Of a stretch of 64,000 nucleotides of DNA, positions 7,023-29,794 are shown piece by piece. The stretch is from contig KL197709.1 in NCBI GenBank assembly GCA_000697665.1, positions 845,877 to 909,876 on the forward strand, given 5' to 3'. Made by a program: the position numbers and the translations under genes. The notes beneath the pieces are model-generated. The model saw only the letters and a list, made by a program, of their open reading frames with translations, was not told the DNA's origin and ran no database searches. The DNA is from Jaapia argillacea MUCL 33604 (Eukaryota; Basidiomycota; Agaricomycetes; Jaapiales; Jaapiaceae). Each line of letters begins with the position of its first letter. The first letter of the stretch is position 1.

Positions 7023-7390
7023 CCATATTTACGGATCCCCATTTGCCACCCGTTTGACCCTTCAGTTCGATGATTGTATCCTATTCATTCGGAGCATTGT
7101 AGTTTACTCCCACCTATTATGGACTGGTATTAGAGTCGTCATCGCTCATCCTTGCACTGTATTTTTTATTTGAAAGTCACATTATCCTCGTGGGCGCATA
7201 CACTCCATGAGTTGCAAGTTGTCTGAGTAGTGTCTATTGGGGAAATGAAAAGCATCCGTCATCCACGACGTTCACCACATTTCCCCCCTCCTTGATGGTG
7301 ATAGCCATGGTGTATAGATAGATAGTATCGATACAATTTGAGCAGCACAACACTGGTTCAGTATTTATTGCATAGCCGTGAGTATGGACA
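7023..7390. other. Convergent 3' intergenic region
   Basis: 368 bases between the stop codons of Rcf2-like (+) and SSADH (-). It contains a short GATA-type tetranucleotide run (around 7313-7325, tagatagatag) and AT-rich stretches suitable for poly(A) sites. No gene is seen. Confidence 0.5.
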
Positions 7391-9898
7391 TCAGATCCCA
7401 CCAAACGCGATGAACTTGGTGACCAAGTACTCATCGATTCCATGACGACTCCCTTCACGTCCTGCACAGCATATCAGCAAACCAAGCCAATCAAGACAAG
7501 CCAAGTAGGACTCACCAAGACCACTCTCCTTGACACCTCCGAAGGGAATAACAGCCTGACTGATCATGCCAGTATTACATCCAACCATCCCGACCTCGAG
7601 CGCCTCAGCCACCCTCCAAACCCTCCCAACATCCCTCGAATAGAAGTACCCAGCCAAACCCACATCAGTGGAGTTAGCCATCTTGACCACCTCTTCCTCC
7701 GTCTCGAATTTCACGATCGCGGCGAGGGGACCAAAGGTCTCTTCGTCATTAACGAGAGAAGTGGGATGGACTTCGGAAAGGACGGTCGGGGCGAAGAACG
7801 ATCCGGGACCTTCGATACGTTTACCGCCAATGAGGAGTTGGGCGCCCTTCGAAATGGCGTCTTCAACGTGGCGGGTGACCTTTTCGATGGCCTTGTCATG
7901 AATGAGGGGACCGTGAGTACTGGGATGGAGGATATCATGAGGCCCGACTTCAATCAATGAAAGAGAGTATTCTCACGTGTCCTCGTGCAAACCATGCCCA
8001 ACCTTGAACTGGGAAACTTTCTCAGTCAAACGAGATGCGAAATCGGCGTAGACTGCAGACTGGACGTAAATTCGGTTGGCGCAGACACAGGTTTGCCCAG
8101 ATCCTCGGAACTTGCTTGCAATGGCACCTAAATCAGAGTTCATTTGAGATCAGCCCTCAGGTCAATGAGAAAAGTAGATAGCCATACCCTCAACAGCTGC
8201 CAGGACATCTGCATCATCGAAGACAATGAAGGGAGCATTTCCACCAGCCTCCAAAGACACCCTGAGAATGTAGTCAGTAGCCGATACTGGTCACCGTCGA
8301 TGCTGTGAATAAACCCACTTCTTCAAGGTAGAGCTTGCAATTCCGTACAGCAGCTTCGCAACGTTGGTGGAGCCGGTGAACGAAACTTTTCGCACAGTTT
8401 TGTTCTCGCACATCTCTCGACCAACGTCAGAGACATTGGCCTGGGTTGTGACGACGTTGATGACACCGTCAGGGATGCCTGCTCTGCGGGCAAGCTGGTA
8501 GGTTTGGAGATAAGCATAGGCAAAATTATATCCATGAGGTGTGAGGAACTGACCTCGACGAGGGCGAGGGCGGAGAAAGGCGTCTCCGGGGGAGGCTTGA
8601 TGACCGCTGTGCAGCCAGCAGCAAGGGCAGCTCCCAATTTTCGTGTGATCATAGCGGAAGGGAAGTTCCATGGCGTCAAGATCGACCTATAACGGATCGG
8701 CGATGAGCACTTTGCGTTAGAGGTGGGATCAAGTCGAATGATGCGGGAGGACGGTGGGATGAGGAATGTCAGGGTTGAAATGCAGACTCACACAACACCT
8801 GTGGGTGACGGTTACGGTTAGGGAGATAAAAAAGAGGAGAAAGTGGACTCCAGGACACACCTATGGGTTGCTTGATGACGACGTTTCGGATATGAGGGAA
8901 TTGAGAAGGAATGTGTTCTGATAATACCTCGTCAAACCGTGCTTCCGAGGTCAATCAACACTAGCACTCACCGCCATAGGTTCGTACTGCCTCCTCAGCT
9001 GCAATATTTATTGATGGGTGAGGACTCCTCAAGTCATCACAGAGTAGCAATGCTTACCAAACCACTAAATTGGAGTCAGTATCACGAGTTTGATAGTAGT
9101 GGAGACATAACAGTGGAGACTTTATAGCACGTACTTCGATGAAGGATGCACTATATGCGTGTTCGCCCTGAAGTTGATTTGTCGGTTAGGACCGTACATA
9201 CCCCAGGGATAGATATGCATTACCTTGGCTTCGGTTAGAGACTTCCCATTCTCAAGGGTCTGGCAAATGAGAGATGTCAATAATGAGGAGCGTTGTGACC
9301 AAGGCATACTCACGATGATGCGCGCCAAGTCCTCAGAATTTTCCAGCATAAGGGCGTGATACTTCAGGAGGAGGTCATGGCGCTCCTAAAGTGATGGGTG
9401 AGATTAAAGCATGGATAGTACAATATCGGAGGCAAACCTTCGCGGTGGTCTTTCCCCAGGTCTTGAATGCCTTCCCAGCAGCTTCAATGGCTTCCTTCGT
9501 CTCTTCAACACCCATCTCTGGGATGGACCCGAGCTCTTCATCGGTGGCCGGGTCTAAACCCCAACACAGGGGCGACAATTGAGTGTTGTCCGGAACGAAG
9601 GATTCCGGTGTAGAGCTCACTGTGCACGCTGATTTTGCCTCCACCCTTCGCATCGACCCACTTTCCATCGATAAAACCGTGTGTTTTGACTAAACTGACG
9701 TCTTTCAATCCCCACTAAAACCCCAGTCCTCGCTCAGCGTTGAATCGTCTCGCCCACCAGGGTAGACACACGTACCGTGGAACCTGTAGTGCTGGCCATT
9801 CTGAACAATATCGAACCAGGTCTCGCGTTGAAGTTGGTGGAAGGGTGAAAACGGAAAGATAGTGATACAGCACGTAGAGCGGAAGTAGGTGGCCTCAT
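7391..9898 (-). CDS. Succinate-semialdehyde dehydrogenase (aldehyde dehydrogenase family)
   Basis: A heavily intron-split gene. In order it shows the ALDH landmarks: [107 protein letters not shown] (catalytic Glu), [14 protein letters not shown] (catalytic Cys with neighbouring Cys, as in SSADH), [12 protein letters not shown] and [10 protein letters not shown]. It oxidises succinate semialdehyde to succinate in the GABA shunt. The start at 9898 gives an Arg-rich, acid-free leader ([17 protein letters not shown]) resembling a mitochondrial presequence. An in-frame ATG at 9799 would give a form lacking it, and an upstream ATG at 9937 also exists. The gene contains 36-, 33-, 7-, 27-, 57- and 7-nt exons in succession between about 9270 and 8792. 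Confidence 0.92.
8792..8798 (-). other. 7-nt microexon of SSADH (GTGTTGT)
   Basis: Flanked by CACAG and GTGAGT. It joins IKQPIG to SILTPWNFP as [13 protein letters not shown], matching the conserved SSADH segment KQPIGVxxxITPWNFP. Skipping it loses the conserved Val and shifts the frame. Confidence 0.85.
9058..9064 (-). other. 7-nt microexon of SSADH (TGGTTTG)
   Basis: Flanked by AATTTAG on the acceptor side and GTAAGC on the donor side. It supplies Trp, Phe and the first base of Ala in [15 protein letters not shown], a motif strongly conserved in SSADH (EWFAEEA). Without it the frame breaks. Confidence 0.85.
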
Positions 9899-20751: not shown

Positions 20752-22612
20752 ATGGACTTTGATTCTGCTCACTACGATCCCCAGTTTGACGTTCCTTTCG
20801 ACAACTATACCGCCTACTCAGACTCCTCGTCCACCCCCAGAACTCCCTCGCCTCCATCCTCCATGGCCTCCTCCATTCACGACGACCAACACCCGCAACA
20901 ATTCAAGTCTTCATTTGACTTGGACCCTCTGAGAAACATTCTTGCTGATCATGCATCCGAAGATGTTTCCGCTCATTCAGTTTGGCCCAGTGTACATCAT
21001 TCCTCACCGAGTCCCTTTTCTTTCCAACCCCCATCGCAACGGAGCTCGTTGTTACAAGAGTTGTATGATCATGACCTCTCGCCGGAGCAGCCGTTTGCGG
21101 GTGTTCAGCAGTCAGACAACTATCTCAACCAGTCCGCCGACCCTTCCTTTGTGAACGGGAACGCTCATTGGTCCCGCCTGCAACATCAGCAACAGCAGTT
21201 GCAGTTGACACAGCCCCGCCAGCTTCAGGATCCTTCAATGCTTCGGCGAGCAACGTTTCCATACGTTCGCCAGGAACGAGAGGACCATTGTACACCTACA
21301 TTCCTCGGCCCCGATAATTCTTCCTCCGGCCAATCCGCTCTCCTTGGCCCATACGCTTCCCGCACCGACGCCCTCTACGGCGAGCCCCTACCCCTTGAAC
21401 TCCACAATCATTCCCAATTTCCCATCCACTCGTCTCCCCATACATCGTATCACGAATTTAATGACGACCCTAATGTAAAACTAGAAGAACCCTCCCATAT
21501 AATTGTACCCTCGCAGTCCTCCTTCTACCAGCGACCCACCTCTTCGTCCTCATCCGGATCTCGATCGTCATCCACATCCCACTCCTACTCGCACCCCCAT
21601 TCGCATCATTCACAATTGGGGCAAATGGGACACTCGTCGCCATATCATCACCCCCTCCACCACCCCACCACTGCCCACCTCGCATACACACTTACACCCC
21701 ATGGACTGCCCGTCCAACACACGGATGATGCCGCATCCAAGGAGACTCAATACCTTCGCCGGCGTTGCTTCAATTGTCACACCACCGAGCCCCCGTCCTG
21801 GCGTCGCTCCACACTTAATCCGGGCAAGATTGTTTGCAATAAGTGTGGTCTCTATGAGAGAACGCATCTGCGACCCCGTCCATTACGGTTTGACGAGCTG
21901 CGTGCCGGTGGGAAGGCGAGAAAGGGAAGCGTCAGCGCGGGGTCGGGGAGTGCCGCGAAGGGGAGCCCCAAAGTGAAAAAGGAAAGGGAGTTTGCAAACG
22001 GGGCGAACTCGATCTCGAGAAGGAGTTCGGTATCGAGTACCACTAGCTCGGTTCACTCCGGCAGTGGTGCGAACAGTGATTGGGACGATTCTGGTAAGTT
22101 CTCCGTGTTTTTTGTCCTGATCTCCACCGGATACGAACATGTCACTGACTCGTGTGTTTCCGTTAGTCTCCGTTCACTCTTCACCCTCGAATCCTTCCTC
22201 TGGCTTCCCTTCGCCTTCCACGCAAACTTACAGCATCCCGCCATCAACGCCACCCCAACTGACGCAGTCTCCTTCCGCGCCTTCCTCTGCGATTCGCCTC
22301 CCCAATGCTCCTCTCAATGACATTGCTGCCACCTCCCAAGCTATCCCGACTCCCAGAAAGGCTGCTACCACCCCCAGCTTTGAATTCGACCGAACGCAGG
22401 AGTTTCTGAGAAGGGGTAGTCTCCCTGCTCAATTGTCTTCCTCGCTTTCGGGTTCTCCGAGAATCCATCAAGGTCGTCCAATTGTGTCATCGCAGCACTA
22501 CGCAGCCCAGATTCAAGGCGTTATTGGTGCAAACGCAGAGACTGGATGGCAGAATATCGACATGGGCAGGAGCACTCCCGCCAAGGAAGAAGTCCTCATC
22601 GGCGCCTCCTGA
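20752..22612 (+). CDS. GATA-type zinc-finger transcription factor
   Basis: Two exons (20752-22093 and 22167-22612), about 595 residues. The N-terminal ~330 residues are Ser/Pro/His/Gln-rich, as in activation regions, starting MDFDSAHYDPQFDVPF. At about residue 339 is one GATA finger, CFNCHTTEPPSWRRS...VCNKCGLYERTHLRPRPL, with 19 residues between the cysteine pairs instead of the usual 17 or 18. Basic residues follow (RAGGKARKG, KVKKERE). The C-terminus is Ser/Pro-rich and includes FEFDRTQEFLRRGSLPAQL. It should bind HGATAR sites in the nucleus. The finger is not of the AreA nitrogen-regulator type, so the biological role is not assigned. ATG 20752 is the first in-frame ATG; the frame is open about 90 bases further up without one. 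Confidence 0.9.
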
Positions 22613-24958: not shown

Positions 24959-26218
24959 TTAACGATAGGCAGATGGCGTGCCGTGATGCGGCAACGACGT
25001 ATGGTATCGAAGGCTTGGGAGGTCATGTGCGCTGCTGTGTCGAGTGGGGGTATTCGAAGAGGACACGGATGAGCGGACAAATCGCATTGCACTCCTAGCA
25101 TATAGGGCTGCAGGAGAAAGATCTCCACGGCCGCTCTCTAAATCATCCTCTCTGTCACTCCCTTTCCGTCTTTCGCTAGCCACAGCGTTCACCGTTGTCT
25201 TTGAAAATCCCAACATTCGGGAAACGATAGATAGGCCGGTGGCAGCCACCCGTGCACCAATCCACTGGGCGAGAGTGCCCCCTGGGACTAGACCAACAAC
25301 GTCTTTGAGGTCCCAAAAATCTCTGTGATGTGTGACACGTCCGCTCTCGTTGAACGACAATCGGGTGATTACATGGAGTTGGAGGTGTAGTGGGCTGGGC
25401 AAGAGGAAATTGAGGAAGGGAACTGGTATTGCGGGATCCAAGGGATGGCTCGCTGATTCGTGGGGAGTGTATATTGACAATTCAGCGGCGGGAGTCCCCT
25501 GTGTTGGGGTCGCGGGATTAGGGAAGAAACGGCCCGCATGGGAGAAGTGGCCGTCGCTGTGAAGGCCGGGAAGGAACAGGACATTGAGGGTATGTTCAAC
25601 CATACATCTACGGTGCCCATCTAGGAAAGGCATTAGCTGGATCCATTCGTAGTCGACATAACATTGCGTCATGAGAGAGGGGACCCACCGAAGCTTTCAC
25701 TCTCGGACAGTTCGCCCACTTCCGTCCAAACGCGCAAGGCCCGAAACCAAGTATCACTGCCTGGTTCCCTCCGGAGTCCTAATAACGTATACAACATCGC
25801 GATAGGCTTCGACACATCCACTTTCGACATTTGCCGTGACAGCGAATGAATGTCTGTAATCACCGAACGAGAAGTTGCGGTGATGAAAGGGTTTTCATAA
25901 CTAGGATCGAGGGACGTATCAGGATACGTACTTCCCGGAAAACAACAATATGCGGACTTACACTGGGTATATCAGTCATATAATCAGTAAAGTGTGGATT
26001 TCATGTTTCAGCAAGGCAATTGGATAGGACGAAGACTCACCCGCGTTAGCTTCATAGAACCGCTCAATGGTTTCCAGACTGGCTGGTTCCCCTTCCCCAT
26101 ATACCATATCACAAACCTCGAGCGCAGTCGCGTGCCGTGAGACGACAGACATGGCATCGGAAGCCTGAGTGCTCGGGCGCGTTGGAAATGGAATGATGTT
26201 TGCTGTTGCTGGAGTCAT
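24959..26218 (-). CDS. Conserved fungal NTF2/SnoaL-like protein
   Basis: Exons on the minus strand: 26218-26041, a one-base exon at 25962, a third beginning at 25900, then the last ending at 24959. The N-terminus includes SLETIERFYEANA-V-YENPFITATSR, the helix-strand opening typical of NTF2/SnoaL-like folds (DAvYENP). Then come ITDIHSLSRQMSKVD, WFRALRVWTEVGELSESES and DGHRRCMVEHTLNVLFLPGL, followed by ITRLSFNESGRVTHHRDFWD and a hydrophobic helix-like LVPGGTLAQWIGARVAATGL. The C-terminus is Ser/Arg-rich and disordered. I recognise it as a conserved fungal protein of unknown function; enzymatic activity cannot be inferred. It is divergent from the ketopantoate-reductase-like gene (260 bases between starts). 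Confidence 0.75.
25962..25962 (-). other. One-nucleotide exon (T)
   Basis: On the minus strand the order is ...GCGG|GTGAGT (78-nt intron) ACCCAG|T|GTAAGT (61-nt intron) CCTAG|TTATGAA. Strong acceptor and donor signals meet around the single T. G+T+T makes Val, giving NA-V-YENPF. Joining exon 1 directly to the last acceptor gives TTA TGA, a stop. Retaining either intron also meets a stop. The only single-intron alternative uses a poor GTCTTC donor and adds a residue to the motif. Confidence 0.65.
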
Positions 26219-26478
26219 TTCTTCGACGGTGAATCGAAAAGGCAGGTTGACAGCGACAATGGTGGTGCAGAGAGAAGAGAGGCCTGCAGCACACCGGACC
26301 AGTGAACTTCGCCGTCATCATCGGTTCCCCACTCGAACTTATCACATGGACTCTGCGACAAACCCGTTTTTAGAAGTCCTTTACGATCGTGGCGTGGCGG
26401 AGCGCATCAGTCGCACAATAAGATTGTCGATAAGATTGGCTTTCCAACACAAACCTCCACCCAAAGTTGCTGCTGAGG

Positions 26479-28156
26479 ATGTCAGAAATCTGCGTGGTTG
26501 GTTTAGGAGGTTAGGAACATCAACCTTACAAGACGTTCCCAACTCCTAATTGTCCCTTCAGCCATCGGAACCATCTATGCCTGGGCTCTTCAGCGTTCGG
26601 GCAAGGCGAAGATCACTGCTGTCTGTCGGCGAGTTAAAATCTCCTTTCATCTCTGGCACTCAATCTCATGCAGAGTGATCCTTGTTAATCCTCTGATCTT
26701 CTCTAGGTCAAACTTTCGCACCATTGCTGGTGGGTTTGTCCCTGCAGTATGACAGGAACGATGTTGCATCCGTCTAATTATCTCAAGACAACGGATTGCA
26801 TATTACATCGGACAAACTTGGAGGTATCAACACCTGGAGGCCTGACCGAAGTGTGTCTTTGGGCGTGAGCTCACTATCCTTCACCTGCGGGCAGCTTGGC
26901 TGAATGTACCGTAGTCGTAAACTCGATTGCAGATGCAGCCGATCGCGACTATGACTATGTCATTTGTGCGTTCAAGTAGGTACTGGTCCTAAGGCTCTCA
27001 ACACTCCTCGACTCACAATTTACAGATGCCTACCTGACGTTGCCAAAACACCAGATTTGATATCGCCGTTGTTGACCAAAACCAAGACCTTCGTCCTCAT
27101 CCAGAATGGGATCGCCATCGAAGCAGATTTGCAAACTGCTGTGCCAGATGCAACAATTATCTCTGGATGCGCTTGGATCGACGTTACTGCCGTCGATGGC
27201 GGCAAAACCGTCGTCCAAACAGGCCAGGTGAGCGCTGTAACTCAGAGGAATACCCTCCCCTCCCAGATTGTGATTGTCTTGAATCCCTGTTGTAAATGTC
27301 ATCTTCACCTCCTTCTAGGAACGGCTTACTCTGGGATATCATCGACCTCCGAAGACTTTGACGAATCAATTCGATGAAGGGGCGGCTAAAGAGTCCCTCA
27401 GCGTCCTTGTGGATCTCCTACAATTAGGTGGGGCCTCTCCTGAGCCAACGGATGATATCGATGCTGCAAGATGGCGAAAAATCCTATGGTAGGTATCCAC
27501 GCCAACCTTCCGTAGGGATGGATCGAGCATGCTTTGGTTCGATTCGACATCTGCCAGGCGTGGATATCACCGTGTCTCAGTACTGCATAATTGCTCATGC
27601 TAATGCAATAGTCCAGGAACGCCAGTTTTTCGACATTATGCACCCTTAGCCGGGCATCAGTATCGGATATCTTGTCTGGCAAGGCCCTTCCAGACATGCT
27701 ACCCGTTGTCCGAGGAGTGATGGTAGAGGTGAGTTACGTTCAAAGCCATCGCCAAACCGAGATAACCAACGTCTCGGTTTTCCTCCCCTGTCAGGTGATA
27801 TCGGTAGCCAGACATGCTGGCGTTTCAACTACAGACCTCCCCGATAATGCCTGGGATCCCATCATTGAAGAAGCGATCCAAGACTACAGTGACATCCTCC
27901 CCGGAAGCAACCCGAGCAGTTTCAAACCATCAATGCTTGTCGATTTGGAAGCTCTTAGACCAATTGAGGTGGAGCCTATCGTTGGAGGTGTCATCAAAAA
28001 AGCACGTGAACTCGGGGTAAGCACGCCAAGGTGAGAGCTGGGATCCGCCTCTGAGTGAGGAAGCTTCATTCCCTTACATCCCTTGAAAGGCTCGAACTCG
28101 TGTACGCGACTTTGAAGGTCATACAGCGGGAAGTGCTAGCTGCTCGGGGAAACTGA
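26479..28156 (+). CDS. Ketopantoate reductase-type (ApbA/PanE) oxidoreductase
   Basis: Multi-exon. The start MSEICVVGLGAIGTIYAWAL gives the Rossmann GxGxxG motif. Then come CRSNFRTIADNGLHITSDKLGG, ADAADRDYDYVICAFKCLPD (conserved Lys), FVLIQNGIAIE (conserved Asn), and the C-terminal helical domain with RWRKILWNASFSTLC (Lys and Asn of the active site) and SMLVDLEALRPIEVEPIVGG (conserved Ser and Glu). The family reduces 2-dehydropantoate to pantoate with NADPH in coenzyme A synthesis, but fungi carry several related paralogues, so the substrate is not certain. The first intron follows GLGAI after only 31 nt of coding sequence. The second intron is GC-AG. The C-terminal exon ends VIQREVLAARGN. 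An upstream open frame overlapping the start is a shadow. Confidence 0.88.
26629..26706 (+). other. GC-AG intron (donor GCGAGT), 78 nt, no stop in frame
   Basis: It splits the Arg codon CG|G in VCRSNF. The GT donor two bases downstream (26633) leaves the wrong phase. The intron is 26 codons long with no in-frame stop, so retention would insert 26 residues after the second Rossmann strand. Confidence 0.7.
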
Positions 28157-28438
28157 TCTCGCCTCCCTGACGTCTTATCGGGTGCTACGTATAGTATAGC
28201 TGTACTGCGACTTGAAATGGATGTAGCCTTCAACGCGAAGAAGACGCTTGTAACAGCCTTGTGACCATCTGCGGGGAGATTGGCTTTCGGTGATGCGGAA
28301 GAATGCCACGTGGCAACGGACAATGATGTGAAGTTCAACGTTCGACACCCCTTCACACCAACTATTACTTGCATCTCCGCCACTACAAACCCGTTAGCTC
28401 TCGAGCTCGGCGGCTCTCGGTCGTCAATATGTCTTTCG

Positions 28439-29794
28439 AGCATGCCCCAGTCATCAAAGGTGTGAGACTAAGACAATTAGGGTGCATCTCAAGGTTTCCT
28501 CATTCCTCGTCTACTCGCTTGCTAGGCCTCATGGTGGGCTGTGCTTTGGCGTCCATCATAGCAGGGGTTTTCGATATGAAACATTACCTGCATCTGCAAG
28601 TAAGTGCGTATTGTTGGACTTGACATCGCCAACAACGTGTATCAATTCTGTCAAACTCTTTGTTTGCTCTAGCTCGTGCCCCACATATCCCGGCATCACC
28701 AAGTGAGAGTGCTTCCCTTTCTGCCTTCCTTGACGTCTCCCGGCAAGCAAACCCAACCTGAATCAGCATCCTTGCTTTCGGTAGTATTGGAGATTGTTGG
28801 TCCATCATCTGGCCTACTCAAACTCAAGTGACCTGTTCCTAGCGGAGCTACTTCTGTATAATGTCGGCGTTCACATCGAGCGCGCTTTCGGAAGCGTCAA
28901 GTTTGCTGTGAGCACTCAATTGCTGATCTCGGGTTTGACGCTTCTTACCCCAGTATCGCTTCTTGCCTAGTCTTTCGCGCTTGTCTCGATCCTTCTTTCA
29001 ACCATCTTGGAGTTCTTAGCGCTACTACTTTTCAGCGGTGTTGGGCTTAACTATATCCATTCTGGGCCAACAACTCTGGTTTTCAGCATCTTGTATCAGT
29101 ATTCAAGGCTGATACCCTCGGCGTATCTCTTCCGTGTTTTCGGAGTGCCGTTGTCCAACAAAGTCTTCTATTACATCTTGGCTTTTCAGGTATGAGTCCC
29201 TTCTGCCATCACGCAGTCATGACTCCTGAGTGTTCTTTCAGATAGCTATTGCACATCTGCCAAGCTCAGCCGTAGTAGCGCTGATTGGTATACTCGCTGG
29301 TCAAATCTACCGTTCTGACTTGGCCAACCTCAAAACCTACCGACTTCCACCGACCATTGTTTATCTGTCATCGAGATACCTGCTACCCCTCGTCGGATCC
29401 ACCCGCGCTCCACGTCGATCACACCGTGCCCTCCCTGACGACAGACCAACGCCGGAGCGCCAGATCCCCCTGGAAGATGAGGTAATTACGACCGCGCCAA
29501 ATGACCCACCCACCAATGGTGGAGGGAGAAATGCTTCCGTCGTCCGTGAATGGGTTGATGAATTGACTGGACGAACAGATCGAGCGTCTGCTGGGCTCAG
29601 AGCTCCCACGGAGGCCGAGATTACCCACCTGACAAGTATATTTCCTGATGTCCAGAGGGATGTTGTGGTGGCTGCGTTGCAGAGGAGGTCCGTACCCAAT
29701 CTTATTGAAGCCGCGCTTATCACCCATGCTGTTCTACTTCTTCAGCCCAAATATAGAGGCAGCAGCCGAAACACTACTTAGTTCCCAGCGCTAG
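28439..29794 (+). CDS. dsc2: Rhomboid-like membrane protein with C-terminal UBA/CUE domain (Dsc2/UBAC2-like)
   Basis: Multi-exon. The protein starts MSFEHAPVIKGLMVGCALAS and has several hydrophobic helices: VGCALASIIAGVF, the rhomboid-like loop PHISRHHQYWRLLVHHLAY, FLAELLLYNVGVHIERAFGS, SFALVSILLSTILEFLALLL and VVALIGILAGQIYRSD. No rhomboid GxSG serine motif is seen, as in pseudoproteases. A disordered linker leads to a C-terminal UBA/CUE domain: TEAEITHLTSIFPDVQRDVV, then AALQRRSPNIEAAAETLLSS after a last intron whose acceptor is at about 29749. Dsc2 in fission yeast is part of the Golgi Dsc ubiquitin ligase; UBAC2 acts in ER quality control. Either name fits the domain order. The stop is 104 bases from that of convergent eIF3d. 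Confidence 0.8.

Follow-up and report, generated by a model that had tools for sequence, protein, structure and literature searches.

The window analysed here is a stretch of 64,000 nt of Jaapia argillacea (contig KL197709.1), and all positions refer to it unless they carry the prefix C1 or C10. On its minus strand lies a gene whose first exon (26041-26218, 178 nt) ends in ...TTC TAT GAA GCT AAC GCG G and has an uncertain start codon, placed by the gene finder with the generic model at the ATG at 26218 and by the trained model on the isolated locus at the in-frame ATG at 26152. Intron 1 follows (25963-26040, 78 nt, GTGAGT...ACCCAG, with a branch-point-like CTGAT/CTGATA near its 3′ end), and intron 2 (25901-25961, 61 nt, GTAAGT...CCTAG, with a branch-point-like CTGATA) begins one base later, so that the T at 25962 is the sole base between the two, both at the coordinates given in the initial annotation. 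Exon 3 (25689-25900, 212 nt) begins T TAT GAA AAC CCT TTC, which reads YENPF, and is separated by intron 3 (25621-25688, 68 nt, GTGGGT...TCCTAG) from exon 4, which together with the stop codon TAA occupies 24959-25620 and carries GRVTHHRDFWDLK. When exons 26218-26041, 25962, 25900-25689 and 25620-24959 are joined with the T kept, a protein of 350 aa results, in which the T is the middle base of a Val codon (G|T|T) that gives NAVYENPF at the junction; the predicted cDNA of this isoform reads GCGGTTTATGAA, with TATGAAAACCCTTTC joined to GCGGT. Joining the outer exons without the T yields a product of 72 aa ending NAVMKTLSSPQLLVR-stop, retention of intron 2 gives NAV-stop (60 aa) and retention of intron 1 an 80-aa product with an early stop; the early stops that had been expected from direct joining and from a middle exon running beyond the T are thus borne out. 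The divergent neighbour on the plus strand (26346-28156) is a predicted ketopantoate reductase-like gene (ApbA, ApbA_C), and further out in the window there are a GATA zinc-finger gene (20752-22612) and a CUE-domain gene (28429-29794).

The structure was examined with a gene finder written by us, which combines codon usage, matrices for donor, acceptor and branch point, and intron lengths, allows exons of any length, and was applied to a 260-kb portion of this contig. Its start values were fungal consensus sites set by hand, and with these the gene was predicted at 24959-26218 with three introns and a 350-aa product that includes the T. The finder was also trained on its own predictions (47 genes and 484 introns, the locus being excluded there only through its low score), and introns 26040-25963 and 25961-25901 were placed again. 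On training with the locus omitted in all four rounds (45 to 50 genes per round), the same two introns were placed in every one of the four. Compared with the 484 predicted introns, intron 1 has its donor at the 93rd percentile, its branch point at the 98th and a weaker than average acceptor at the 13th, and for intron 2 the donor, acceptor and branch point lie at the 69th, 58th and 76th percentiles, all of these values being approximate because the predictions include fused genes and artefactual long introns. At 78 and 61 nt, both have ordinary lengths for a genome in which the median predicted intron is 58 nt, and introns of at least 136 nt make up 3.5% of 173 or 7.6% of 484 introns. Introns 1 and 2 show no sign of mutual copying, as their local alignment score of 12 was equalled or exceeded by 805 of 1,000 shuffles. 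Considered as a single-nucleotide coding exon, the T has AG directly upstream, GT directly downstream and a plausible intron on each side, it is needed for the frame, and no better junction was found among the in-frame isoforms listed below.

The same finder reported in the 260 kb one other one-nucleotide exon, weaker at 3.1 nats, and three exons of 0 nt, because of which it must be taken to yield some false tiny exons. The second one-nucleotide candidate (C1 about 741258-754856, minus strand) is a G flanked by GTGCAG and GTAAGT; its first donor is weak and its second intron 188 nt long, and in view of the small margin it was set aside and is probably an artefact. Tiny exons of other lengths were also predicted. 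A gene at C1 about 853266-855774 (about 7390-9898 of the window, minus strand) has two 7-nt exons, and the protein sequence directly after one of them looks like that of an aldehyde dehydrogenase. To the left of the window, two adjacent predicted genes (C1 about 815290-817722 and 818534-821005) have in common an 11-nt exon at AGHETS/AGHETT-GNSLTWTLWELAKNP with short introns on either side; we call them P450-like on the strength of AGHET, which we take to be a P450-type motif, and they stand in tandem, the microexon being conserved between them. An 11-nt exon within this motif fits the microexons described for Phanerochaete P450 genes (PMC1184071).

Isoforms were listed in which the anchors are linked across one or two introns, each 40-250 nt long, with site scores above -3. 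In the initial annotation G+T+T was held to give the only open frame, which proved too strict, as 1,718 in-frame isoforms were found. Among these the one-nucleotide exon leads clearly, ranking first with 24.5, and the next isoforms score 18.6 (a 187-nt intron), 15.2, 14.9, 14.9 and 14.6 (the GTCTTC donor). With locus-free matrices the corresponding values are 24.3 for the one-nucleotide exon, 18.3 for the 187-nt intron and 14.7 for GTCTTC. It also outscores the best of the paths that do without the donor at 25961, whichever of the 6 intron penalties between -3 and -8 is set. Given the premise of a 140-nt stretch and a frame short of one base, chance gave an equally good one-nucleotide exon once among 20,000 dinucleotide shuffles of that stretch and six times among 14,504 overlapping fills from intergenic DNA; if every in-phase exon of 1, 4, 7, 10 or 13 nt is admitted, the counts are 33 and 20, respectively.

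The strongest competitor had been overlooked so far. It is a single 187-nt intron (26040-25854) that uses the same strong donor with an acceptor TTACAG inside exon 3, keeps the frame with consensus sites at both ends, comes second in the list of 1,718 and is selected at 5 of the 6 intron penalties when the 25961 donor is barred. Its predicted cDNA reads GCGGACATT and its protein NADIHSLS, omitting VYENPFITATSRSVIT, so that the NTF2-like motif is deleted; as it is also long for a genome with such short introns and lies 5.9 nats below the one-nucleotide exon (6.0 with locus-free matrices), we consider it very unlikely. A shade less probable again is an assembly error, a recent frameshift or a pseudogene, whereby one 140-nt intron would have lost a base by its junction and the AG-T-GT arrangement would be coincidental. 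The coding score of the gene is indeed low (11.2 to 13.0) and runs on the full contig sometimes fuse it to spurious exons further upstream, for which reason the coding may be unusual or the assembly faulty near the junction. Yet this explanation needs the very coincidence counted above in shuffles and fills, and with the T as an exon the gene is otherwise open over 350 codons.

Less credible than either is a single intron with the donor GTCTTC, which would put Gly-Asp in place of Val. The initial annotation had named it as the rival, with the donor at 26035 and a length of 139 nt; the donor actually starts at 26036 and the intron (26036-25901) has 136 nt. It preserves the frame with one intron, and its predicted cDNA reads GCGGGTGAT with GGTGAT at the junction, but the donor score of -1.37 is lower than those of all 484 predicted donors, the intron passes over the GTGAGT donor four bases upstream, the isoform is about 10 nats worse than the one-nucleotide exon, and it adds a residue absent from all four motifs aligned below. 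A [D1,2] stwintron, whereby intron 1 would interrupt an outer intron within its donor (G + TGTAAGT) without a base being retained, is almost certainly not what lies here: the G before and the T after intron 1 do rebuild a GT, but a stwintron retains nothing and keeps the frame, whereas here GCG + TTATGA leads to an immediate stop and the rebuilt donor GCG|GTGTAA scores 0.40 as against 5.03 for GGT|GTAAGT. Nor is this a zero-length exon, that is a ratchet point of recursive splicing, as one T intervenes and joining without it shifts the frame.

The identity of the protein bears on the choice between these isoforms, since RFYEANAVYENPFITA arises in the Val isoform alone of the seven compared; together with the ranking this supports the reading of the T as an exon that had been put forward from the sequence. 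Four NTF2-like motifs served as references. The first two come from the same genome, namely KYFTPDAEFRHPI from a SigF NTF2-like protein in C10 (PF24840, E 1.7e-64) and IYAKDAVFHDPI from a SnoaL_2/DUF2358-like protein in C2, whose best matches lie below the Pfam cut-offs; both genes were located by way of selected Pfam families and serve here for the spacing of the motif. The other two, LYAPDAVLEDPV and LFTDDIVFEDPV, are from PDB chains of monensin biosynthesis proteins, which are weak matches of the C2 protein (E 0.013). In each of the four a single residue, Val in three cases, separates A/I from the aromatic residue or Leu that follows, and the pattern derived from them is [hydrophobic][YF]xx[DN][AI]x[FYL]x[DNH]P. 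In ungapped comparison with them RFYEANAVYENPFITA scores 17.25, which is above all 49,974 background 16-mers taken from the remaining proteins predicted in the region (maximum 16.75), although the lead is small and the four references, being paralogues and weak PDB matches, were picked after the fact. A second stretch, SIYTPHESASHPLDPA in exon 4 (24959-25620), also resembles the NTF2-like motif, but its score of 13.5 is reached by 4 of the 49,974 background 16-mers and the likeness is probably due to chance. Searched against the PDB, a profile of the four motifs retrieved further SnoaL-like chains and steroid isomerase chains, in all 16 distinct sequences with its own source chains included; on the 350-aa protein its best score was -0.8 bits, and it neither recognised the motif nor separated the isoforms. 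Near the C-terminus LSFNESGRVTHHRDFWDLK matches the C2 SnoaL-like protein at 10 of 19 residues (E 6e-4 in a single comparison), and the match to the SigF protein is weak, at E 0.12.

Searches with the protein gave little further. Pfam returned 0 families for the 350-aa protein at E up to 1, and scans of the seven isoforms and five fragments gave no usable match; the 72-aa frameshift product and two fragments had weak PIRC1_2 matches, all far below the family cut-off, the fragments scoring 13.8 bits (Val) and 12.0 (Gly-Asp). In the PDB no homologue was found, the whole protein having two matches at E 1.4 and the motif region none, and the SigF protein gave one unrelated match (E 1.6). The viral and prokaryote contigs scanned held no relative, and the own genome no close paralogue, with one place at E 0.2 beyond the gene's own exons. 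A structural model of exon 4 alone had a mean pLDDT of 39, too poor for use in judging the cone-shaped alpha+beta fold of this protein group. The NTF2-like label given to the gene at the outset therefore depends on the motif and the short C-terminal match, Pfam giving none of its own; from its sequence the protein is likely NTF2-like, the name as such not being established. At C10:394815-395312 and C10:395488-396333 the SigF gene (PF24840) is preceded by an apparent broken copy, with RCFTPDTEC and a weak family match at 394847-394942, which suggests a decayed tandem duplicate.

Taken together, splice sites, frame, isoform ranking and protein motif, all obtained by computation, make it very probable that this is a coding gene with a one-nucleotide second exon, the T at 25962, whose two flanking introns would be spliced sequentially. 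The T would be flanked by two ordinary short GT-AG introns, for each of which a separate donor, branch point and acceptor are predicted. Since a single base lies between the AG that closes intron 1 and the GT that opens intron 2, two spliceosomes should not be able to engage them simultaneously, and hence the introns would be removed one after the other; that one exon base cannot hold the 3′ and 5′ splice-site complexes together is an argument also made for APC11 (PMC4674806). Removal would proceed by intron definition and would resemble recursive splicing, except that the mRNA would retain one base. Were intron 1 removed first, exon 1 would gain the T, and a strong donor would survive in the resulting CGGT|GTAAGT; here the intended GGT|GTAAGT, at 5.03, should win over the overlapping GCG|GTGTAA at 0.40. 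If intron 2 goes first, CAG|TTTATG would remain a normal acceptor. Either order would lead to the identical product and is compatible with the sequence. We infer that the cells use this splicing, in sequential order, and make the protein. A further idea is that the T exon is a frame gate kept across related fungi, whereby sequential as against direct splicing of the 140-nt stretch would set the amount of protein through nonsense-mediated decay. Such a gate could set the protein level because skipping the T or retaining either intron ends the protein early, but we regard it as unlikely.

The one-nucleotide exon as such is already known, and the locus looks like a rare further example. Confirmation would place it among the very few nuclear cases, which include APC11, VPS55 and CYP621A, and as it lies in an ordinary short-intron gene it would favour the view that there is no lower bound to exon length where introns are the units recognised. 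Such genes would be annotated wrongly by pipelines that set a floor on exon length; our gene finder, which has no such limit, recovered the T unprompted. No one-nucleotide exon of a basidiomycete appeared among the papers listed in the literature searches, the coverage of which leaves most subscription journals and preprints outside. For mitochondria, a single-base-pair exon is described in placozoan cox1 (PMC5436844), and the term reportedly also occurs in a paper on Ophiostoma mitochondrial genomes (PMC12308204). The view of its rarity in the initial annotation, which cites a plant APC11 gene, is out of date, given the accounts of VPS55 (PMC8831610) and of Fusarium CYP621A (PMC12940212).

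In APC11 (Guo and Liu 2015, PMC4674806; also PMC8831610) a single coding base, flanked by AG and GT, is needed for the frame, as here, and its authors propose intron definition and recursive splicing with the introns removed in turn (PMC4674806). The composite intron of that plant gene has 422 nt as against 140 nt here, and the exon was demonstrated by cDNA and reporter constructs, the base also being changed, deleted or doubled in reporters, and is described from most land plants (PMC4674806, PMC8831610), whereas ours is a computational prediction. For the APC11 exon, a standard read mapper failed unless the exon had been supplied in the annotation (PMC8831610). The one-nucleotide microexon of VPS55 is likewise one base followed by a GTRAGT donor, which is conserved in VPS55; according to PMC8831610 the exon is missing from reference annotations, and both present and absent among the transcripts of several plants, and it was confirmed by RNA-seq and sequencing of RT-PCR products, while the T at 25962 is predicted from sequence. 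Among other fungal systems, [D1,2] stwintrons also require two consecutive splicing reactions at one site, but as described there the inner intron splits the outer splice site and both are removed whole (PMC9024468, PMC12403724), while here one base must stay. Phanerochaete P450 genes share the short introns and tiny exons, the shortest exon given in that report being 6 bp (PMC1184071) as against 1 nt here. There is also a likeness to Fusarium CYP621A (Nelson and Syed 2026, PMC12940212), a fungal gene in which the single base is also the middle base of a codon within a conserved motif and joins the exon phases, and whose composite intron, 139 nt long in F. graminearum, compares with the 140-nt stretch of Jaapia. 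That paper claims the first fungal case and the second example overall, VPS55 being overlooked. The retained base there is a G in an ascomycete P450, supported by 20 orthologues and 18 RNA reads (PMC12940212), whereas here it is a T in a likely NTF2-like gene read from one genome.
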